Part shown: piece by piece, positions 1,430-10,029 of the stretch
Numbering within the stretch: position 1 is the stretch's first letter
How the letters are laid out: each line of letters begins with the position of its first letter
NCBI GenBank assembly: GCA_947488485.1
Contig: CANKZO010000061.1
Span: 1-11,174, forward strand
Reading direction: 5' to 3'
Origin: Opitutia bacterium
Lineage (GTDB): Bacteria > Verrucomicrobiota > Verrucomicrobiae > Opitutales > UBA953
Length of the DNA stretch: 11,174 nucleotides
The notes under the pieces: generated by a model
Told to the model about the DNA's origin: nothing
What the model saw: the letters and a program-made list of their open reading frames with translations, nothing else
Database searches by the model: none
Position numbers and translations under genes: made by a program

Positions 1430-1455
1430 GGTAGGGACAGCACCACGTGCTGTCC
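1430..1455 (+). repeat. REP-like module: GTAG head plus palindrome (A1)
   Basis: A GGTAGGG head (GTAG at 1431-1434) runs into a perfect palindrome at 1435-1455: a 9-bp stem, GGACAGCAC against GTGCTGTCC, with a 3-nt CAC loop. It starts 6 nt after the DUF1501 stop codon. No T-run follows, so it does not look like a standard intrinsic terminator, although a transcript hairpin here could protect the 3' end. The 26-nt length and head match modules B and C in the same spacer. Confidence 0.7.
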
Positions 1456-1476
1456 TAAGGTGCAAAGGTGGCGGGT

Positions 1477-1504
1477 GAGTATCGAGTATTGAGTATGGAG
1501 TATC
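1477..1504. repeat. 7-bp tandem repeat (GAGTATN x4)
   Basis: Four head-to-tail heptamers: GAGTATC, GAGTATT, GAGTATG, GAGTATC. The same array with one base change lies at 2824-2851. Only the seventh base varies between units in this copy. It sits inside the conserved core between the hairpin modules. Confidence 0.85.
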
Positions 1505-1522
1505 GGGGGAATGCCTGCCTCG

Positions 1523-1577
1523 GGTAGGGTTGAGCGACCTCGCTCAACTGCGGCTGACCGAGGCGGTCAGCCCTACC
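1523..1577. repeat. REPIN-like inverted pair of palindromic modules (B1/C1)
   Basis: Two 26-nt modules face each other with their heads outward. Module B (1523-1548, plus strand) has GGTAGG followed by a 9-bp stem at 1529-1548 (GTTGAGCGA / TCGCTCAAC, 2-nt loop). Module C (1552-1577, minus strand) has a 9-bp stem at 1552-1572 (GGCTGACCG / CGGTCAGCC, 3-nt loop) followed by CTACC, the complement of the head. Heads 1523-1527 and 1573-1577 can pair, giving a three-way junction in single-stranded DNA or RNA. The GTAG-plus-hairpin layout in inverted pairs is that of REP/BIME/REPIN elements. Assignment to that class is inference. Confidence 0.72.
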
Positions 1578-1675
1578 TCACAAGATCCAAAAAGCTTTCC
1601 TACCCACCCCCGCTACTCATCTTTCCGTCTTTCACCCTGTCGGCCTGAAACCAATCTAGGGTCAACCCCCTCGCC

Positions 1676-2731: not shown

Positions 2732-2740
2732 GCCGCCAGA

Positions 2741-2766
2741 GGCAGGGACAGCAACACGTGCTATCC
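2741..2766 (+). repeat. REP-like module, decayed (A2)
   Basis: Counterpart of 1430-1455, here with a GGCAGGG head (the GTAG has become GCAG) and an imperfect stem: GGACAGCA at 2746-2753 against TGCTATCC at 2759-2766, with one mismatch. It lies 9 nt after the beta-helix stop codon. Head and stem changes suggest this copy is drifting. Confidence 0.6.
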
Positions 2767-2823
2767 TATGTGCAAAAGTGCAAATCGGCCTTCGGCCTGT
2801 GCAAAGGTGCAAAAGTGGCGGGT

Positions 2824-2851
2824 GAGTATCGAGTATTGAGTACGGAGTATC
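2824..2851. repeat. 7-bp tandem repeat (GAGTATN x4), second array
   Basis: Units are GAGTATC, GAGTATT, GAGTACG and GAGTATC, differing from 1477-1504 only by T to C in the third unit. Copy number is the same in both arrays. Confidence 0.85.
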
Positions 2852-2869
2852 GGGGGAATGCCTGCCTCG

Positions 2870-2924
2870 GGTAGGGTTGAGCGACCTCGCTCAACCGCGG
2901 CTGACCGAGGCGGTCAGCCCTACC
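2870..2924. repeat. REPIN-like inverted pair of palindromic modules (B2/C2)
   Basis: Same architecture as 1523-1577. Module B spans 2870-2895 (GTAG at 2871-2874, 9-bp stem 2876-2895). Module C on the minus strand spans 2899-2924 (9-bp stem 2899-2919, CTAC at 2920-2923). The only change from copy 1 is T to C in the 3-nt linker between the hairpins, so both stems and the outer head pairing are intact. Confidence 0.72.
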
Positions 2925-3011
2925 TCCCGAGACCCGAAAAGTTTCCCTGCCCCTATCTTTCCACCTTTGCACTTTTGCACCTTTGCACTGTATCTTCGCT
3001 ACCTCCACCCC

Positions 3012-3771: not shown

Positions 3772-5559
3772 ATGCGAATCCTCGGCATCGAAGGCGGCGG
3801 CACGCGGACCTCGGCCTTGCTGGTCGACGGGAACGACGCCGAACTGGCCTCCTTCGCCGTCGGTCCCGGCAACCTCCGGCTCCTCAACCCCGAAGAGCTC
3901 GCCGCCCTGCTTGAAGCCATCCGCGAACGGCTGCCCGCCCCGCCGGACCGCATCGGGGTCGGCATGGCCGGCGTCCGCACCGACGCCGACCGCGAACGCC
4001 TGCGCCGCGCCGTCGGATCGGCCTGGCCCGGCGTGCCGGTCGTGGTCGGCGACGACCTGCTCCTCGCCCTCGAGGCGGACCCCTGGCCGGCCGACTGCGC
4101 CGCGCAGGTGCTCCAGCTGAGCGGCACCGGCTCCTGCTGCCTCGGACGTCATCGCGACGGTCGCACGGTCAAGATCGGCGGCCGTGGCCACATCATCGGG
4201 GACCGCGGCAGCGCATGCGACATCGCGATGCATGCGCTCAAGTCCACGGTCACGATCTCCGACATCGACGCCGACTGGCCCCGCCTCGGCGCCGACATGC
4301 TGGCCTTCCTCCAGATGAACGACCCCGAGTCGCTCATCGAATGGTCGATGACGGCGAACAAGACCGAGATCGCCTCGCTGGCGCAGGTCGTCTTCGCCGC
4401 CGCGACCTCGCGGCAGGACCCGATCGCCGTGGCCATCCTGCGCCGCGCCTCCGAGCGGCTCAGCAAGGACCCGGTCCACTGCGCCGCGCGGGTCGCCCGT
4501 CCGGGCGAGAAAGTCCGCTTCGTGCTCAACGGTTCGACCTTGCTCAAGAATCCTTGGTTCGCCGATGAGGTCGCCGCGAAGATCCTCGCCGCCCGGCCGG
4601 GCAGCGAAGTCGTCCGCCTCAAACGCTCTGGCGTCTGGGGCGCCATCGCCATGGCCCGCCGCCTCGAAGGCCCCGCTCCGGCGACCGCGGCGTCCTTGGC
4701 TACGCCCGCACCCTCCGCGACAGCTTCCTGGCGCCCCGTCGCCAACGCCCCGACCGAAGGGCGCAATCCGAAGTCCACGGGCTTCGCGGAGATGCCGCTC
4801 GCTGAAGCGATTCAGCTCATGCTCGCTGAGGATGCGACGCTGCCCGGCAAGATCCTCGCCGAAAGCGCCCACGTCGCCTGGACGGTCGAAGCGGTCACGA
4901 AGGCCTTCGCCTCCGGCGGGCGCCTGATCTATTGCGGCGCCGGGACGTCCGGCCGACTCGGAGTGCTCGATGCGAGCGAATGCCCGCCGACCTTCCGCAC
5001 GCCCGCTTCGCTCGTCCAAGGCATCATGGCCGGCGGCCGCCAAGCGCTCTGGAGCGCCGTCGAAGGCGCCGAAGACGATGACTCCGCAGGCGTCCGCTCC
5101 ATCGCCGCCCGCGCCGTGACCGCCCAGGACGTCGTCATCGGCATCTCCGCCAGCGGGCACGCGCCCTTCATCTGGGGCTGCCTCGCCGAGGCCCGTCGCC
5201 GCGGCGCCAAGACCGTCCTCGTCGCCTGCAATCCCGCCTACCGCGACCACCCTCTCCTCGACTGCGCGATCCTCCCCGACTCCGGCCCGGAAGTGCTCAC
5301 GGGCTCGACCCGGCTCAAGGCCGGCACGACGACGAAGCTCGTGCTCAACCTGATCACGACCCTCGCCCTGGCCCGTTCGGGCAAGGTGATGAGCAACCTG
5401 ATGATCGACCTGAATCCCTCGAACTCGAAACTGCGCGGTCGCGCGATCCGTATCGTGCGCGACCTGACCGGCGCCGAAGAAGCCGCCGCCCGCGCGGCCC
5501 TCGAGTCGCATGGCTGGGTCATCCGCCAAGCCGTGTCCGCCCTCACGGGTAAGGCCTAA
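3772..5559 (+). CDS. murQ: Fusion: BadF/NagK-type amino-sugar kinase + MurNAc-6-phosphate etherase (MurQ)
   Basis: A 595-residue cytoplasmic protein with no signal peptide. Residues 1-300 are a BadF/BadG/NagK-family kinase: phosphate motif GIEGGGTRT near the N-terminus, GDD at 93-95, SGTGS at 117-121, GDRGS at 143-147 and a later LNGSTLL segment. An Ala/Pro/Thr linker (about 301-327) joins it to a MurQ domain starting TEGRNPKS at 328. That domain has the SIS motif GAGTSGR (389-395), ASECPP with Glu403, VEGAED with Glu434, SASG (459-462) and TGSTRLKAGT (510-519). Glu403 and Glu434 are 31 residues apart, like the catalytic Glu83/Glu114 pair of E. coli MurQ. MurQ cleaves the lactyl ether of MurNAc-6-phosphate to GlcNAc-6-phosphate and D-lactate. 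The kinase would supply MurNAc-6-phosphate, as MurK does in Clostridium; its sugar choice (MurNAc, GlcNAc or both) is inference. Compared with E. coli MurQ, about 20 C-terminal residues appear to be missing. Confidence 0.92.
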   Translation: MRILGIEGGGTRTSALLVDGNDAELASFAVGPGNLRLLNPEELAALLEAIRERLPAPPDRIGVGMAGVRTDADRERLRRAVGSAWPGVPVVVGDDLLLALEADPWPADCAAQVLQLSGTGSCCLGRHRDGRTVKIGGRGHIIGDRGSACDIAMHALKSTVTISDIDADWPRLGADMLAFLQMNDPESLIEWSMTANKTEIASLAQVVFAAATSRQDPIAVAILRRASERLSKDPVHCAARVARPGEKVRFVLNGSTLLKNPWFADEVAAKILAARPGSEVVRLKRSGVWGAIAMARRLEGPAPATAASLATPAPSATASWRPVANAPTEGRNPKSTGFAEMPLAEAIQLMLAEDATLPGKILAESAHVAWTVEAVTKAFASGGRLIYCGAGTSGRLGVLDASECPPTFRTPASLVQGIMAGGRQALWSAVEGAEDDDSAGVRSIAARAVTAQDVVIGISASGHAPFIWGCLAEARRRGAKTVLVACNPAYRDHPLLDCAILPDSGPEVLTGSTRLKAGTTTKLVLNLITTLALARSGKVMSNLMIDLNPSNSKLRGRAIRIVRDLTGAEEAAARAALESHGWVIRQAVSALTGKA

Positions 5560-5566
5560 TCATCTT

Positions 5567-7900
5567 ATGTACCGCACCTTCCTCCTACTGCTGGCTTCTT
5601 GCCTGAGCCTAGCCGCGCTTGATCAGCCGACGCTCGACCTCTCCCTAGAGCCACCGACCCTGAATACCAACCCGGGCCCGGAATACGACGCGGCGAATCG
5701 ACCGGGCAATATGATCATCGGCCTCGATCGCACGCCGAAGGGGCGTCTCTGGGCCGCGTGGATCGGCAACGGCGACAGCGCCAACGGCTTCCTGATGCTA
5801 TCTTCCTCCGACAACGGCGGTAAAAGCTGGTCGAAGACCCGACTGGTCATCGATCCGACCGACCTACCGGGCAAACCCAACCGCCGCACGCTCGTCGGCA
5901 ACCTCTGGACCGACCCGCAAGGCCGTCTGTGGTGCTTCTTCGATCAGAGCCTCGGCATGTTCGACGGACGCGCAGGCGACTGGGTCACGCGCTGCGATAA
6001 CCCCGATGACGCGAACCCGACCTGGTCGGCGCCGGTACGCATCGCCGACGGCTGCACGCTCAACAAACCGACGGTCCTCGCCAACGGCGACTGGCTCCTG
6101 CCTGTCTCGCTCTGGACTCGCAATCAGATCAACCCCTGGAACCGAGACTTTCCTGACGTGGCGACTTTCCGCAACCACCACCGCGACCTCGACGCCATCC
6201 GCATGGCCAACGTCTACGCCTCCTCCGACCAAGGTAAGACCTGGACCCGCCGCGGCGGCGTCACCTTCCCGGGCACCGACTTCGATGAGCACATGATCGT
6301 CGAACGAAAGGACGGCTCGCTCTGGATGCTGGCCCGCGCTGGCAAAGGTATCAGTGAATCCACTTCGGCCGACGGTGGCCGCACCTGGAGCACGCCCATG
6401 GATTCGCCGATCAAGAACCCCAAGGCCCGGTTCTTCATTCGTCGGCTCGCCTCCGGCAACCTGCTGCTGGTGAAGAACGGCCCGATCGACGTCCAGCTCC
6501 CCCGTCGCTCCAGCCTGAGCGCCTTCCTCTCAAAAGATGACGGCAAGACCTGGGGACCAGGACTCCTACTCGACGACCGCGCCTCAGTCTCCTATCCCGA
6601 CGGCTTCCAAGCGCCCGACGGCTCGATCCACATCCTCTACGATTGGAACCGCCACACCGACGCCGAGATCTTGCTCACGAAGTTCACGGAAGAGGACATC
6701 GTCAAGCAGACCAAGGTCACCCGCTCGCTCGTGAACAAAGCGACCAAGACGCCGCACCCGGAACTCGGCGGCCACGGCGTCCGTGCTGACGCCAAGTGGA
6801 CAGCCCAAGGTCTCATCGATGCCAAGCAAGACCGAACCAGCATCCCGTACGAAGGCTACACGCCCAACCGGATGGTCTGCGACACGACCCTCCGCCTGAT
6901 GCCCGACGGTTCCTGGATTTACTTCATGCTGGCCGGCGGCGACACCGAACCCTCCCCGCTGAACTATACCGCCATCACCCGCAGCACCGACGAAGGCCGG
7001 ACGTGGTCGCCGCTCGCGACATTCGACGTCGGTTTCCCGCGCGAAGGCGAGACCATCGGCCAAGGTCCGACCGAGGTCCTCGTCCGCGGCGGCCGTGCGA
7101 CGCTCTTCTTCTCGACCCACTCGAAACACTGGGCCAATGACTTCCGCTCCTGGTATCTGACGAGCGACGACTCCTTCAAGACGTGGAGCAAGCCCACCGC
7201 CCTGCCTGGTCGCCTGAAGGAACGCACATTCATCCGCCCTTCCATCGTCACCAAGGACGGCCGTATCCTGATGCCCTTCCAACACTACGTCGGTCCGGAT
7301 TCCGAAAAGGACAAGGCTCCGCTCGACCGCGCATTCACCAACCCACGCAATGGCGTGCTGATGAGCGGGGACGGCGGCAAGACCTGGAGCGAGCACGGTA
7401 ACGTGCGCCTCACGCCCAACGACAAATACTTCGGCTGGGCCGAACCGACCATCCATGAACGCGCCGACGGCTCGATCCTGATGTATATCCGCGCCGATGG
7501 CCTCGGTGGCGTGCTCTATCAGGCGACCTCCCGGGACGGCGGTCGCACGTGGCCCGAATTCGCTTCGGTCACCGACATCCCCAATCCCGGCAGCAAGGCC
7601 ACCCTCTTCCCGCTCGGCGGCCAGGCTGTCGCCTTACTGCACAACAATAACTCCAAACGTCGTGCTCCGCTTTCCCTCTGGATCAGCTTCGACGACGGCA
7701 AGACCTGGCCCTACCAGCGCGTGCTCGTGCCCGAGGCCGGCCCCGACCCGCAATATCCCGGCAAGCACATGAAGGGGTCGATCAATTATCCGGACGGCTT
7801 CGTCAGCGCCGACAAGCAGTGGCTGCACTTCGCCTACGACGACGCCCGCCACCGGGCCGTGCATTACAGCGCGAAGCTACCGCCGCTGCCCGCCAAGTAA
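5567..7900 (+). CDS. Exported tandem sialidase-fold (BNR/Asp-box) protein
   Basis: A 777-residue protein. The ATG at 5567 gives the signal MYRTFLLLLASCLSLAA; an upstream in-frame GTG-type start overlaps the preceding gene and is rejected. LASC (9-12) could be a lipobox, so it may be a lipoprotein rather than free. Nine Asp-boxes (S-x-D-x-G-x-x-W type) are visible, at 79-88, 219-226, 265-274, 322-329, 473-480, 532-540, 600-607, 654-662 and 707-714. They show two six-bladed beta-propellers, roughly residues 25-385 and 400-777. The halves are clear duplicates: DEHMIVERKDGSLWMLARAG (240-259) aligns with AEPTIHERADGSILMYIRAD (625-644), and YPDGF occurs at 343 and 741. The family includes exo-alpha-sialidases (GH33-like, BNR_2), but I do not find a canonical F/Y-R-I-P motif, so sialic acid specificity is unproven. 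It follows the etherase gene by 7 nt, in the same operon. Confidence 0.9.
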   Translation: MYRTFLLLLASCLSLAALDQPTLDLSLEPPTLNTNPGPEYDAANRPGNMIIGLDRTPKGRLWAAWIGNGDSANGFLMLSSSDNGGKSWSKTRLVIDPTDLPGKPNRRTLVGNLWTDPQGRLWCFFDQSLGMFDGRAGDWVTRCDNPDDANPTWSAPVRIADGCTLNKPTVLANGDWLLPVSLWTRNQINPWNRDFPDVATFRNHHRDLDAIRMANVYASSDQGKTWTRRGGVTFPGTDFDEHMIVERKDGSLWMLARAGKGISESTSADGGRTWSTPMDSPIKNPKARFFIRRLASGNLLLVKNGPIDVQLPRRSSLSAFLSKDDGKTWGPGLLLDDRASVSYPDGFQAPDGSIHILYDWNRHTDAEILLTKFTEEDIVKQTKVTRSLVNKATKTPHPELGGHGVRADAKWTAQGLIDAKQDRTSIPYEGYTPNRMVCDTTLRLMPDGSWIYFMLAGGDTEPSPLNYTAITRSTDEGRTWSPLATFDVGFPREGETIGQGPTEVLVRGGRATLFFSTHSKHWANDFRSWYLTSDDSFKTWSKPTALPGRLKERTFIRPSIVTKDGRILMPFQHYVGPDSEKDKAPLDRAFTNPRNGVLMSGDGGKTWSEHGNVRLTPNDKYFGWAEPTIHERADGSILMYIRADGLGGVLYQATSRDGGRTWPEFASVTDIPNPGSKATLFPLGGQAVALLHNNNSKRRAPLSLWISFDDGKTWPYQRVLVPEAGPDPQYPGKHMKGSINYPDGFVSADKQWLHFAYDDARHRAVHYSAKLPPLPAK

Positions 7901-7968: not shown

Positions 7969-10029
7969 ATGCGCCTCCTCCTCGCCTTAGGGCTCCTGCT
8001 GCTCGCCCGTCCCGCCCAGGCCGCGGAGGCCGATGTCATTGTCTACGGCGCCACCCCGGGAGGTTTCTGCGCGGCGATCGCCGCCGCCCGCGAAGGCGCC
8101 AAGGTCGTGCTCCTCGAACCCACCGCCCACGTCGGCGGAGTCAACACCGGCGGCCTGAGCTTCAGCGATTCCAACCAGACCGTCAGGTCCACCCTGCTGG
8201 GTCTATTCGAGGAATGGCACCAGCGCGTCGCCGCCGATTATGCCGCCCGCGGCGTGAAGCTGCCTTACGACGTCGCGGTGAAGGACAACTCCGTCTGGAC
8301 CTACGAACCGCACGTCGCCGCCCGCGTGACGGACGCGATGCTCAAGGAAGCCGGCGTGAGCGTGCTGACGAAACAGACCTTGGAAGGCGTCGAGAAAGCT
8401 GGCGCCCGGATCGTCGGCCTGCGGACGTCCGGCGGCATGCACACCGCGAAAGTCTTCATCGATGCCACGTATGAGGGCGACCTGATGGCCCGCGCCGGCG
8501 TGGTCTGGCACCTCGGTCGAGAGAGCCGCGACGAATACGGCGAATCGTTCGCGGGCCGCCAATACCCGAAGGAGAAGATGGCCATCAATGGTTTCGATGC
8601 CAACGGCCTGCCGCTGCCATTCATCACGTCCGTCCGCCCGGGCGACGACCAAGCCGGCGAAGAGACCGTCATGGTCTACAGCTTCCGGCTCTGCCTGACC
8701 AAGAACCCTGCGAACCGCGTACCGTTCCCGGAACCGCAGACCTACGACCCGGCACGCTTCGAACTGATCCGCCGGTATTTCCAGAAATACCCAAACGCGC
8801 CGCTGCCCTGGGATCTTTACCCCCTGCCGGGAGACAAGTTCGACGCCAACAACGGCATCGGGAAGATGTTCTCGATGGGACTCGTCGGCGAAGCCAACGG
8901 CTGGTGCGCCTCCGATCCCGCCGGCCGCGCCAAGCTCTGGGAGAAGCATAAGCAGTATACCCTGGAGTTCTACAAGTTCCTCACGACCGACCCGGCCGTC
9001 CCGGCGAAGATCCGCGCGACGATGGCCGAGCTCGGCCTTTGCCGAGATGAATTCCCGGAGACGCAACATTGGTCGCCGCAACTCTACGTCCGCGAGGGTC
9101 GACGCATGGACGGACGAATGATCCTGACCCAGAACGACGTGCTCAAAGACGCCCAGAAGGAAGACCCAATCGCGATCTCGTCCTTCCCGATCGATTCGCA
9201 TGACTGCCGTCGCCTCGCCCTGCCCGACGGCGTCATCAACGAAGGCACCATCTTCCCCGTACGCATGCCGGGGCGCCGCCACGGCTACGCCTACCACATT
9301 CCGTATCGCGCCATCACGCCTTCGGCATCGGAGTGTTCCAACCTGCTCGTCCCTGTCGCGCTCTCGGCTACGCACGTCGCGTATTCATCCGTCCGCGTCG
9401 AACCGACCTGGATGGCCATCGGCCAAGGCGCTGGTGTCGCCGCCGCCCTCTCCGCCAAGGCCGGCGTCACCGTCCAAGCCCTCGACTACCCCACGCTCCG
9501 TACCCGCCTGCTCGCCCAGAAGGTCGTCCTCGAACTCCCCGTGCTGCCGCCGGTCGGCAAGGTCGCCCGCTCCTCCGGCCCAGTCTCGATCGACTCGAAG
9601 TCCCTACCGGGGCTGATCCTCGACGACGCGCAGGCCGAACTCTCGGGCGACTGGGAACGCTCCACGAACTTCAAGCCGCACGTCGGCACGGGCTACCTGC
9701 ACGACGAACAGCGCTCGGATGGTAAGTCGCGCGCGGTGTTCCGCTTCAAGGGACCGGCCGACGGCGAATTCGCCCTGCGCATGGCCTACTCCGCCCACGA
9801 GACACGGACGACGCGCCTTCCGGTCACGATCGTCGGCGGCGGCACGGAGCAGAGCTTTACCGTCGACCAGACCCAGCCCCTCCCCGCCGGTGAGGCCTTC
9901 CGCGAAGTTGGTCGCATCCGCCTCCGTCAGGGCATGGACTATACGCTCACCGTCGCCAACGAGGACACCAAAGGCTTCGTGATCCTCGACGCCTTCCAGT
10001 TGCTCCCGGTCGTCGCACCGGCAAAGTAA
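7969..10029 (+). CDS. Exported FAD-dependent oxidoreductase with golvesin-like C-terminal domain
   Basis: A 686-residue protein starting at the ATG 7969. An in-frame TTG at 7951 would add six residues (MHSSPP) before the signal peptide and is less likely. MRLLLALGLLLLARPAQA is a Sec signal cleaved before AEA. Residues 21-50 form the Rossmann FAD/NAD motif, ADVIVYGATPGGFCAAIAAA with acidic Glu50 at the end of beta-2. HVGGVNTGGLS (54-64), LYVREGRRMDG (around 375-379) and GQGAGVAAALS (485-495) follow, as in the FAD_oxidored family common in Planctomycetes and Verrucomicrobia. Residues ~550-686 resemble the golvesin C-terminal/xanthan-lyase-associated beta domain (FRFKGPADGEFALRMAYSAH, FTVDQTQPL, GFVILDAFQLL), a likely carbohydrate- or surface-binding module. 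Substrate is unknown; sugar or polyol oxidation is plausible. The stop is 4 nt before the next start, implying co-transcription with the lipoprotein gene. Cofactor loading is a puzzle, since the signal lacks a twin arginine. Confidence 0.9.
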   Translation: MRLLLALGLLLLARPAQAAEADVIVYGATPGGFCAAIAAAREGAKVVLLEPTAHVGGVNTGGLSFSDSNQTVRSTLLGLFEEWHQRVAADYAARGVKLPYDVAVKDNSVWTYEPHVAARVTDAMLKEAGVSVLTKQTLEGVEKAGARIVGLRTSGGMHTAKVFIDATYEGDLMARAGVVWHLGRESRDEYGESFAGRQYPKEKMAINGFDANGLPLPFITSVRPGDDQAGEETVMVYSFRLCLTKNPANRVPFPEPQTYDPARFELIRRYFQKYPNAPLPWDLYPLPGDKFDANNGIGKMFSMGLVGEANGWCASDPAGRAKLWEKHKQYTLEFYKFLTTDPAVPAKIRATMAELGLCRDEFPETQHWSPQLYVREGRRMDGRMILTQNDVLKDAQKEDPIAISSFPIDSHDCRRLALPDGVINEGTIFPVRMPGRRHGYAYHIPYRAITPSASECSNLLVPVALSATHVAYSSVRVEPTWMAIGQGAGVAAALSAKAGVTVQALDYPTLRTRLLAQKVVLELPVLPPVGKVARSSGPVSIDSKSLPGLILDDAQAELSGDWERSTNFKPHVGTGYLHDEQRSDGKSRAVFRFKGPADGEFALRMAYSAHETRTTRLPVTIVGGGTEQSFTVDQTQPLPAGEAFREVGRIRLRQGMDYTLTVANEDTKGFVILDAFQLLPVVAPAK

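Follow-up and report, generated by a model that had tools for sequence, protein, structure and literature searches.

The hairpin modules clustered at two places in the window (the whole stretch of 11,174 bases analyzed here) are, with high confidence, REPs of the GTAG superfamily, each class of which is most likely spread by a RAYT. In relatives of the window organism, RAYT genes lie between REPs, and each type of RAYT was paired nearly exclusively with its own class of REP, including the classes present in the window. We infer transposition, as well as any activity of the window copies, which lie in a duplicated block.

REP units in the window

A REP, in the definition given in the available text of PMC3733652, is a GTAG tetranucleotide adjoining a short palindrome of 20 to 40 bp. 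Five window units, plus a sixth that has decayed, have GTAG directly beside such a palindrome (Table 1). The units share one build, consisting of GGTAG, a stem starting with GG, a loop of 3 to 4 nt, and a returning arm, while the stems of A, B, and C are three different sequences. An original prediction made from the letters of the window had described modules with a GGTAGGG head running into differing palindromic stems, and the unit analysis bore this out. The same prediction gave each module a length of exactly 26 nt, which stood for A and C but not for B, which is 27 nt long in the same register and reaches 26 nt only if its stem is read in another 9-bp register, leaving a loop of 2 nt. In the register with loop ACCT, the outermost stem pair of B is G.T. 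Modules B and C were correctly seen as an inverted pair with outward heads; 2 nt separate them, and B' and C' are arranged likewise. Two close REPs in inverted orientation make a REPIN, and both pairs have this form, so that A is a single REP and B/C is a REPIN.

Table 1. REP units and composite repeats in the window
Feature	Description	Positions	Strand	Details
Module A	REP unit GGTAG + GGACAGCAC(CAC)GTGCTGTCC	1430-1455	+	26 nt; 9-bp stem; loop CAC
Module B	REP unit GGTAG + GGTTGAGCG(ACCT)CGCTCAACT	1523-1549	+	27 nt; left half of inverted pair (REPIN)
Module C	REP unit GGTAG + GGCTGACCG(CCT)CGGTCAGCC	1552-1577	-	26 nt; 9 bp; right half of REPIN
A'	Decayed copy of module A	2741-2766	+	Head GGCAGGG; two stem mismatches
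B'	Perfect copy of module B	2870-2896	+	10-bp stem when read with 2-nt loop
C'	Perfect copy of module C	2899-2924	-	Unit comparison
Block 1	Composite repeat, B/C with preceding spacer	1450-1605	+	Direct repeat D1; 156 nt; 92%
Block 2	Second copy of composite repeat	2797-2952	+	Direct repeat D1; 156 nt; 92%

The window has five units of this build, whereas 200 first-order Markov copies of it averaged 0.005 and never contained more than 1, and GGTAGGG words occurred 7 times where 0.90 were expected, a count that none of 200 shuffles reached. Together, these comparisons exclude chance. Five of the seven words were the modules themselves; the other two (7709-7715; 9602-9608, minus strand) lie inside genes and are followed by no such hairpin. 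When four stretches were folded as single-stranded DNA, each was more stable than all 200 of its shuffles (z scores of -4.8 to -6.2), and the B/C pair folded into two hairpins with their two heads paired with each other. Both clusters lie between genes of the window.

Identification of the modules as a known RNA family or a tRNA was rejected, as there was no Rfam match at the gathering score and no tRNA, and terminators were rejected because the hairpins lack a following T run. A search of a plasmid collection with positions 1425 to 1620 of the window returned no match, which says little.

Abundance of REP classes in related genomes

Tests were run in the nearest genome (G001), in its genus, g1 (55 genomes), and in its family (79 genomes). 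G001 shares 20% of the window's sampled 31-letter words, and shared words together with synteny probably place the window organism among the relatives of G001; in the taxonomy, UBA953 belongs to class Opitutia of the phylum Verrucomicrobiota. The 26-nt pattern GGTARGG-N17-CC was found 230 times in G001 against 37 for the control. Across the 55 g1 genomes, GGTAGGG-N17-CC was found 5947 times against 1246, a nearly fivefold excess, and in 46 of these genomes the count was above twice the control. Counting of whole REP units gave 101 in 182,701 bases of G001, from stretches chosen as REP rich, and 61 in 230,003 bases of G053, from ten stretches chosen blind to REPs (three of them at Y1 genes), with a single unit in the reversed sequence in each case.

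The individual classes were also abundant. For example, the module A unit (at most one mismatch) occurred in 42 of the 79 genomes with up to 43 copies, and the module C stem occurred in 33 with up to 41 copies, all of these genomes belonging to g1. A further unit, GGGCAGCAC(CGC), was found in 43 of the 79 genomes, in two genera, with up to 44 copies. Backward controls gave 0 in every genome for all three. The relatives therefore carry the many dispersed copies per genome that are characteristic of REPs. Three earlier expectations were confirmed in the nearest relatives: a genome-wide excess of headed palindromes, several stem classes (61 unit kinds beside 22 RAYT types), and inverted pairs, with 41 heads-out neighbors within 150 nt in the sampled stretches.

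RAYT genes and their flanking REPs

Searching for Y1_Tnp gave matches in 44 of the 79 family genomes. Among the 22 Y1 loci read first, 12 were short (frames of about 136 to 190 amino acids), and REPs stood beside all 12; the other 10 were of a long sort. These long Y1 genes (about 300 to 340 amino acids, some cut short) were rejected as RAYTs of these REPs, with a REP as near as 250 bp at 1 of the 10 (distance, 241 bp). Because PF01797 alone underdetects the short RAYTs, a profile was built from ten of them, and it gave 85 matches in 45 of the 79 genomes. Examination covered 61 loci; of the other matches, one belonged, as a second piece, to a locus that was in the count, and 23 weaker ones, several of them long Y1 genes, were left out. 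As a separate observation, two genomes of genus g2 (G007 and G009) had 8 and 18 Y1_Tnp matches without an excess of GGTAGGG units.

A GGTAG hairpin lay within 250 bp at 57 of the 61 short RAYT loci, which were the 57 strongest, and on both sides at 50. By genus, 54 of the 57 belonged to g1, 2 to g5, and 1 to g2; two of them, on contigs 17 and 100 of G001, may be halves of one gene. The four remaining loci, distant ones from G008 and G010, had no GGTAG hairpin within 250 bp. Contig ends cut four of the seven one-sided loci and an internal stop upset the measurement at another, leaving two that were truly one-sided at this threshold. At 39 of the 50 two-sided RAYTs an identical unit was present on both sides, whereas 2,000 shuffles of partners averaged 3.2 and did not exceed 9, and at 43 of 53 loci (L107 and L110, for example) the nearest downstream REP overlapped or abutted the RAYT stop codon. 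The REPtron arrangement, in which a RAYT gene sits between REPs of one class, is thus present in the relatives.

The short proteins also had the features of RAYTs. Residues H74, H76, and Y127 were invariant in all ten aligned sequences, giving the His-x-His motif and Tyr of Y1/HUH enzymes, with Y127 being what we take to be the catalytic Tyr. All ten matched the Pfam Y1_Tnp family and, at E values of up to 0.001, the NCBIfam RAYT model REP_Tyr_transpos (NF047646); the score of 86.1 against a cutoff of 80 bits is that of member 1 alone. Their best match among solved structures was 4er8, TnpArep, presumably the E. coli protein (E value of 7.8e-15). Outside the family, 49 of 80 RAYT relatives had GTAG or GTGG hairpins nearby, 34 of them on both sides, compared with 12 of 138 control placements, although these were the best 80 of 326 and many came from the same genus, so that this is no independent test.

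Pairing of RAYT type with REP class

Clustering of 55 RAYTs at 65% identity by single linkage, with the four G008 and G010 loci and two pieces shorter than 100 amino acids left out, gave 22 types, and only 3 of 61 unit kinds occurred beside more than one type. On the flanks of type T1 RAYTs (6 loci) stood CTGACC/TTGAGCG/TTGACCA units, which make up the B/C class. The stem and loop of module C were found unchanged in two of these loci (L075 and L116), and the module B stem was found there with loop CCCT instead of ACCT. The unit beside type T2 (6 loci) and beside T16, which is closely related to it, was GGACAGCAC(CAC), the same as module A. The expectation that RAYT genes would be flanked by the same modules was therefore realized in the relatives, with the module A unit at T2 and the module C unit at T1. 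Type T3 (6 loci, one a contig-end piece in G001) was flanked by the GGGCAGCAC(CGC) unit. Across types, RAYT protein distance correlated with stem distance (r = 0.48, Mantel P = 0.0001) and with loop distance (r = 0.34, P = 0.0003).

Copy number followed the same pairing. Median class copies per Mb in genomes where the matching RAYT was found, against those where it was not, were 11.3 versus 4.0 for T2/T16, 7.5 versus 0.5 for T1, and 13.7 versus 3.2 for T3, with P values of 0.00007 to 0.0006 in a comparison that ignores the kinship of genomes. Copies were also above those of genomes carrying another of the three types (P values of 0.003, 0.015, and 0.038, kinship again ignored). T1-class copies were as many in genomes with a T3 RAYT (median, 7.8) as in those with a T1 RAYT (7.5). 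G077, G042, G035, G069, and G032 were clear exceptions to the association, and high copy numbers per Mb without a detected matching RAYT were seen in G077 (20.6, T2), G035 (12.8, T1), and G069 (18.3, T3). The density of GGTAGGG was likewise higher where Y1 genes were present (63.8 versus 19.1 per Mb, P = 7e-6), but this test mixes long and short Y1 genes, making the class-specific copy test the better one. What had been predicted as one REPIN family with several stems and a shared head, served by one or more RAYTs, therefore survives in its REPs, its REPIN, and the RAYTs of relatives, but is better described as several REP classes, most with their own RAYT type.

A duplicated block around a beta-helix gene

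The two window clusters align over 151 nt at 93%, spacer included, which makes them copies of one block to be counted once, not independent insertions. The whole set had been predicted to recur at 2741-2924; this was exact for B' and C', while A' is a decayed remnant and the recurrence is the copying of one block. Over 226 nt, the second cluster (window 2735-2960) and its syntenic counterpart in G001 share 94% identity, and Block 1 is missing from the syntenic place in that genome. No clean empty site was found in comparisons with G001, G043, G051, and G053. The clusters surround a beta-helix gene (1676-2731), with A/B/C before it and A'/B'/C' after it, and the REP blocks may have served recombination at this locus. 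The beta-helix gene itself is absent between the same neighbors in G043, G051, and G053 and is present, without Block 1, in G001.

The window units could be relics of REPs that spread long ago, moved now only by homologous recombination of the composite block around the beta-helix gene, with no active RAYT. The likeness of the two blocks down to the spacer is consistent with this, as are the match of Block 2 to a G001 block that has no Block 1 partner, the decay of A', and the occurrence of class copies where no RAYT was detected. We consider it somewhat unlikely, given that identical or near-identical copies of the A and B/C classes are numerous across the genus and that open-frame RAYTs of types T1 and T2 are present in relatives.

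Several other elements were seen in this region. Four tandem GAGTATN heptamers separate module A from B/C in both blocks (1477-1504 and 2824-2851). A second dispersed repeat, at 2770-2816, consists of GTGCAAA units around a CGGCCTTCGGCC hairpin, the arms of which also occur at 2799-2817 and 2970-2988; its 40-nt pattern (at most three mismatches) was found in 35 of the 79 genomes, all of genus g1, with a control of 0. At several places among the matches listed this repeat lay about 11 nt after a REP, and in the sampled stretches 14 of 35 places with the motif were within 60 nt of one. Farther along, a single gene (3772-5559) fuses a BadF/BadG-type ATPase domain to a GKRP-like SIS domain; GKRP-like SIS proteins include MurQ etherases.

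Possible recognition at the hairpin tip, and mixed arrays

If each REP class was spread by its own RAYT, the shared head and the variable stem would have different roles. In analogy to the REPtrons studied in PMC8266576, a RAYT (TnpA-REP, a Y1/HUH single-strand transposase) would bind the single-stranded REP hairpin, use the GTAG head for cleavage, and perhaps read the tip of the hairpin, meaning the first loop base and the stem pairs that close the loop. The common GGTAG-GG head would then reflect shared descent and shared catalytic needs of RAYTs, and the differing tips and stems would mark different RAYTs.

The opposite case, with a decisive head, all stem classes served by a single RAYT or a few, and neutral variation among the stems, is very improbable. 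GGTAG with a stem starting in GG is indeed common to all counted classes (the head being a requirement of the scan), classes occur in many genomes where no matching RAYT was found, and mid-stems differ among units of one RAYT type, but neither 22 RAYT types with nearly exclusive classes nor identical flanking units at 39 of 50 two-sided RAYTs, where chance gives about 3, would be expected of it. Still less probable are host hairpins under selection (for transcription ends, RNA stability, or protein binding) with a secondary RAYT link: the intergenic position of both clusters and the credit given to REPs for such roles in the available text of PMC3733652 are outweighed by the missing Rfam match and T runs, the class-specific flanks of RAYT genes, and the 9 of 55 g1 genomes not above twice the control.

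Returning to class-specific RAYTs, agreement within types located the most constant hairpin positions. Since the unit scans required the head and, for these tests, GG at the stem base, constancy of the head and of that GG is not a result. Within-type difference was least at loop base 1 (0.06, against 0.52 when permuted), stem position 8 (0.13 against 0.74), and stem position 9 (0.24 against 0.68). Mid-stem positions 3 to 7 also agreed within types above chance, less strongly (ratios of 0.49 to 0.62). Units of one type do differ in mid-stem, and beyond its first base the loop was not steady, whole loops differing in 0.62 of within-type pairs. On the RAYT tree, in which most inner branches have weak support (5 of 19 starred), loop base 1 changed 6 times, as few as in 25 of 1,000 shuffles; stem position 9 gave no such signal, with 300 of 1,000 shuffles having as few changes. 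Among 39 distinct inverted pairs in RAYT flanks, stems were equal in 1 and loops in 16. The within-type agreement and these pairs suggest an address in the tip and more freedom in the mid-stem. Mid-stems may have been driven apart to keep the two units of a pair from folding into a single long hairpin, which the available text of PMC3733652 raises for heterodimers. A CT dinucleotide before the head, a candidate for the cleavage dinucleotide, was enriched at -5 and -4 (0.16 and 0.17 versus 0.06), but loosely.

In the sampled stretches, 35 of 85 neighbor pairs within 150 nt had the same orientation. Among the 18 same-orientation pairs at most 20 nt apart, none shared a stem, 2 shared a loop, 17 had spacers of 9 to 13 nt, and 1 consisted of two units of one RAYT type (T5). 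Same-orientation arrays with different stems and 9- to 13-nt spacers were seen at L036, L038, L039, L040, and other stretches of G001, as well as at L166 of G053. Plain tandem duplication would give equal stems, whereas insertion beside resident REPs could give arrays of unequal stems.

Our tentative proposal is that the identity of a RAYT resides in the hairpin tip (loop base 1 and the last two stem pairs), that the head is universal, and that the mid-stem can diverge freely, which keeps the two halves of a pair from merging into one long hairpin. In that case the genus could be a natural library of RAYT-hairpin pairs, about twenty in number and orthogonal to one another, and mixed-class arrays with 9- to 13-nt spacing could arise by RAYT insertion next to resident REPs. 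Because module B, in this register, starts its loop with A and the T1 flanks start theirs with C, and because T1-class stems are also found with loop GCC in G001, recognition of the tip is something that we infer and not a result.

For future use, the approximately 20 RAYT types, most with their own hairpin class, form a comparative set for finding the hairpin bases and protein residues that set specificity, and a set at the level of one genus also suits asking how new REP classes arise. In these genomes, such repeats around genes should be annotated as REPs, not as regulatory hairpins.

Comparison with known REP-RAYT systems

The original prediction had suggested that this family may be undescribed in its lineage. 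RAYT-defined REP classes and the GTAG repeats of Opitutus terrae (PMC3733652) are published, so that the suggestion holds at most for the genus, for which no literature on REPs appeared among the top matches listed. In the available text of Nunvar 2013 (PMC3686654), 22 and 13 REP classes were defined by RAYT proximity in fluorescent pseudomonads and Stenotrophomonas, respectively, and high REP abundance appeared dependent on the cognate RAYT. The accessible part of Di Nocera 2013 (PMC3733652) describes several coexisting GTAG families in O. terrae, a verrucomicrobium, and reports that REPs flank RAYT genes and that heterodimers are common. Given these REP classes and GTAG families, as far as those texts describe them, the elements of the window are of a kind already known, here in a lineage that has been little studied.

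Similarities extend to structure. The Stenotrophomonas REPs in the available text of PMC3686654 have 8 to 9 perfect pairs directly after GTAG or GTGG, like the window units, and by description the GTAG-17 head-to-head dimers of O. terrae, with 1 to 2 bp between units (PMC3733652, same part), resemble the B/C pair with its 2 nt. Compared with the GTAG repeats in that part of PMC3733652, same-orientation neighbors are frequent here (35 of 85). Relative to the groups covered in the available text of PMC3686654, the phylum is a different one, and one genus-level group supplies most of the 22 types, which are clusters at 65% identity and were defined unlike their classes.

Recognition by TnpA-REP was characterized biochemically on three REPtrons by Corneloup 2021 (PMC8266576). 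In the available text of that study, single loop bases were decisive (G13 of the Sm loop; T12, T13, and A15 of the Mb loop), changes at the stem bottom were tolerated, and group 3 systems had perfect palindromes, a likeness to the present units by palindrome form. Those data, in the same text, came from assays on three pairs, whereas the present ones come from natural variation in 22 types alone. Less expected here were how many RAYT types a single genus-level group contains and the finding that within-type agreement was best at the hairpin tip, matching the published SELEX result at the loop.
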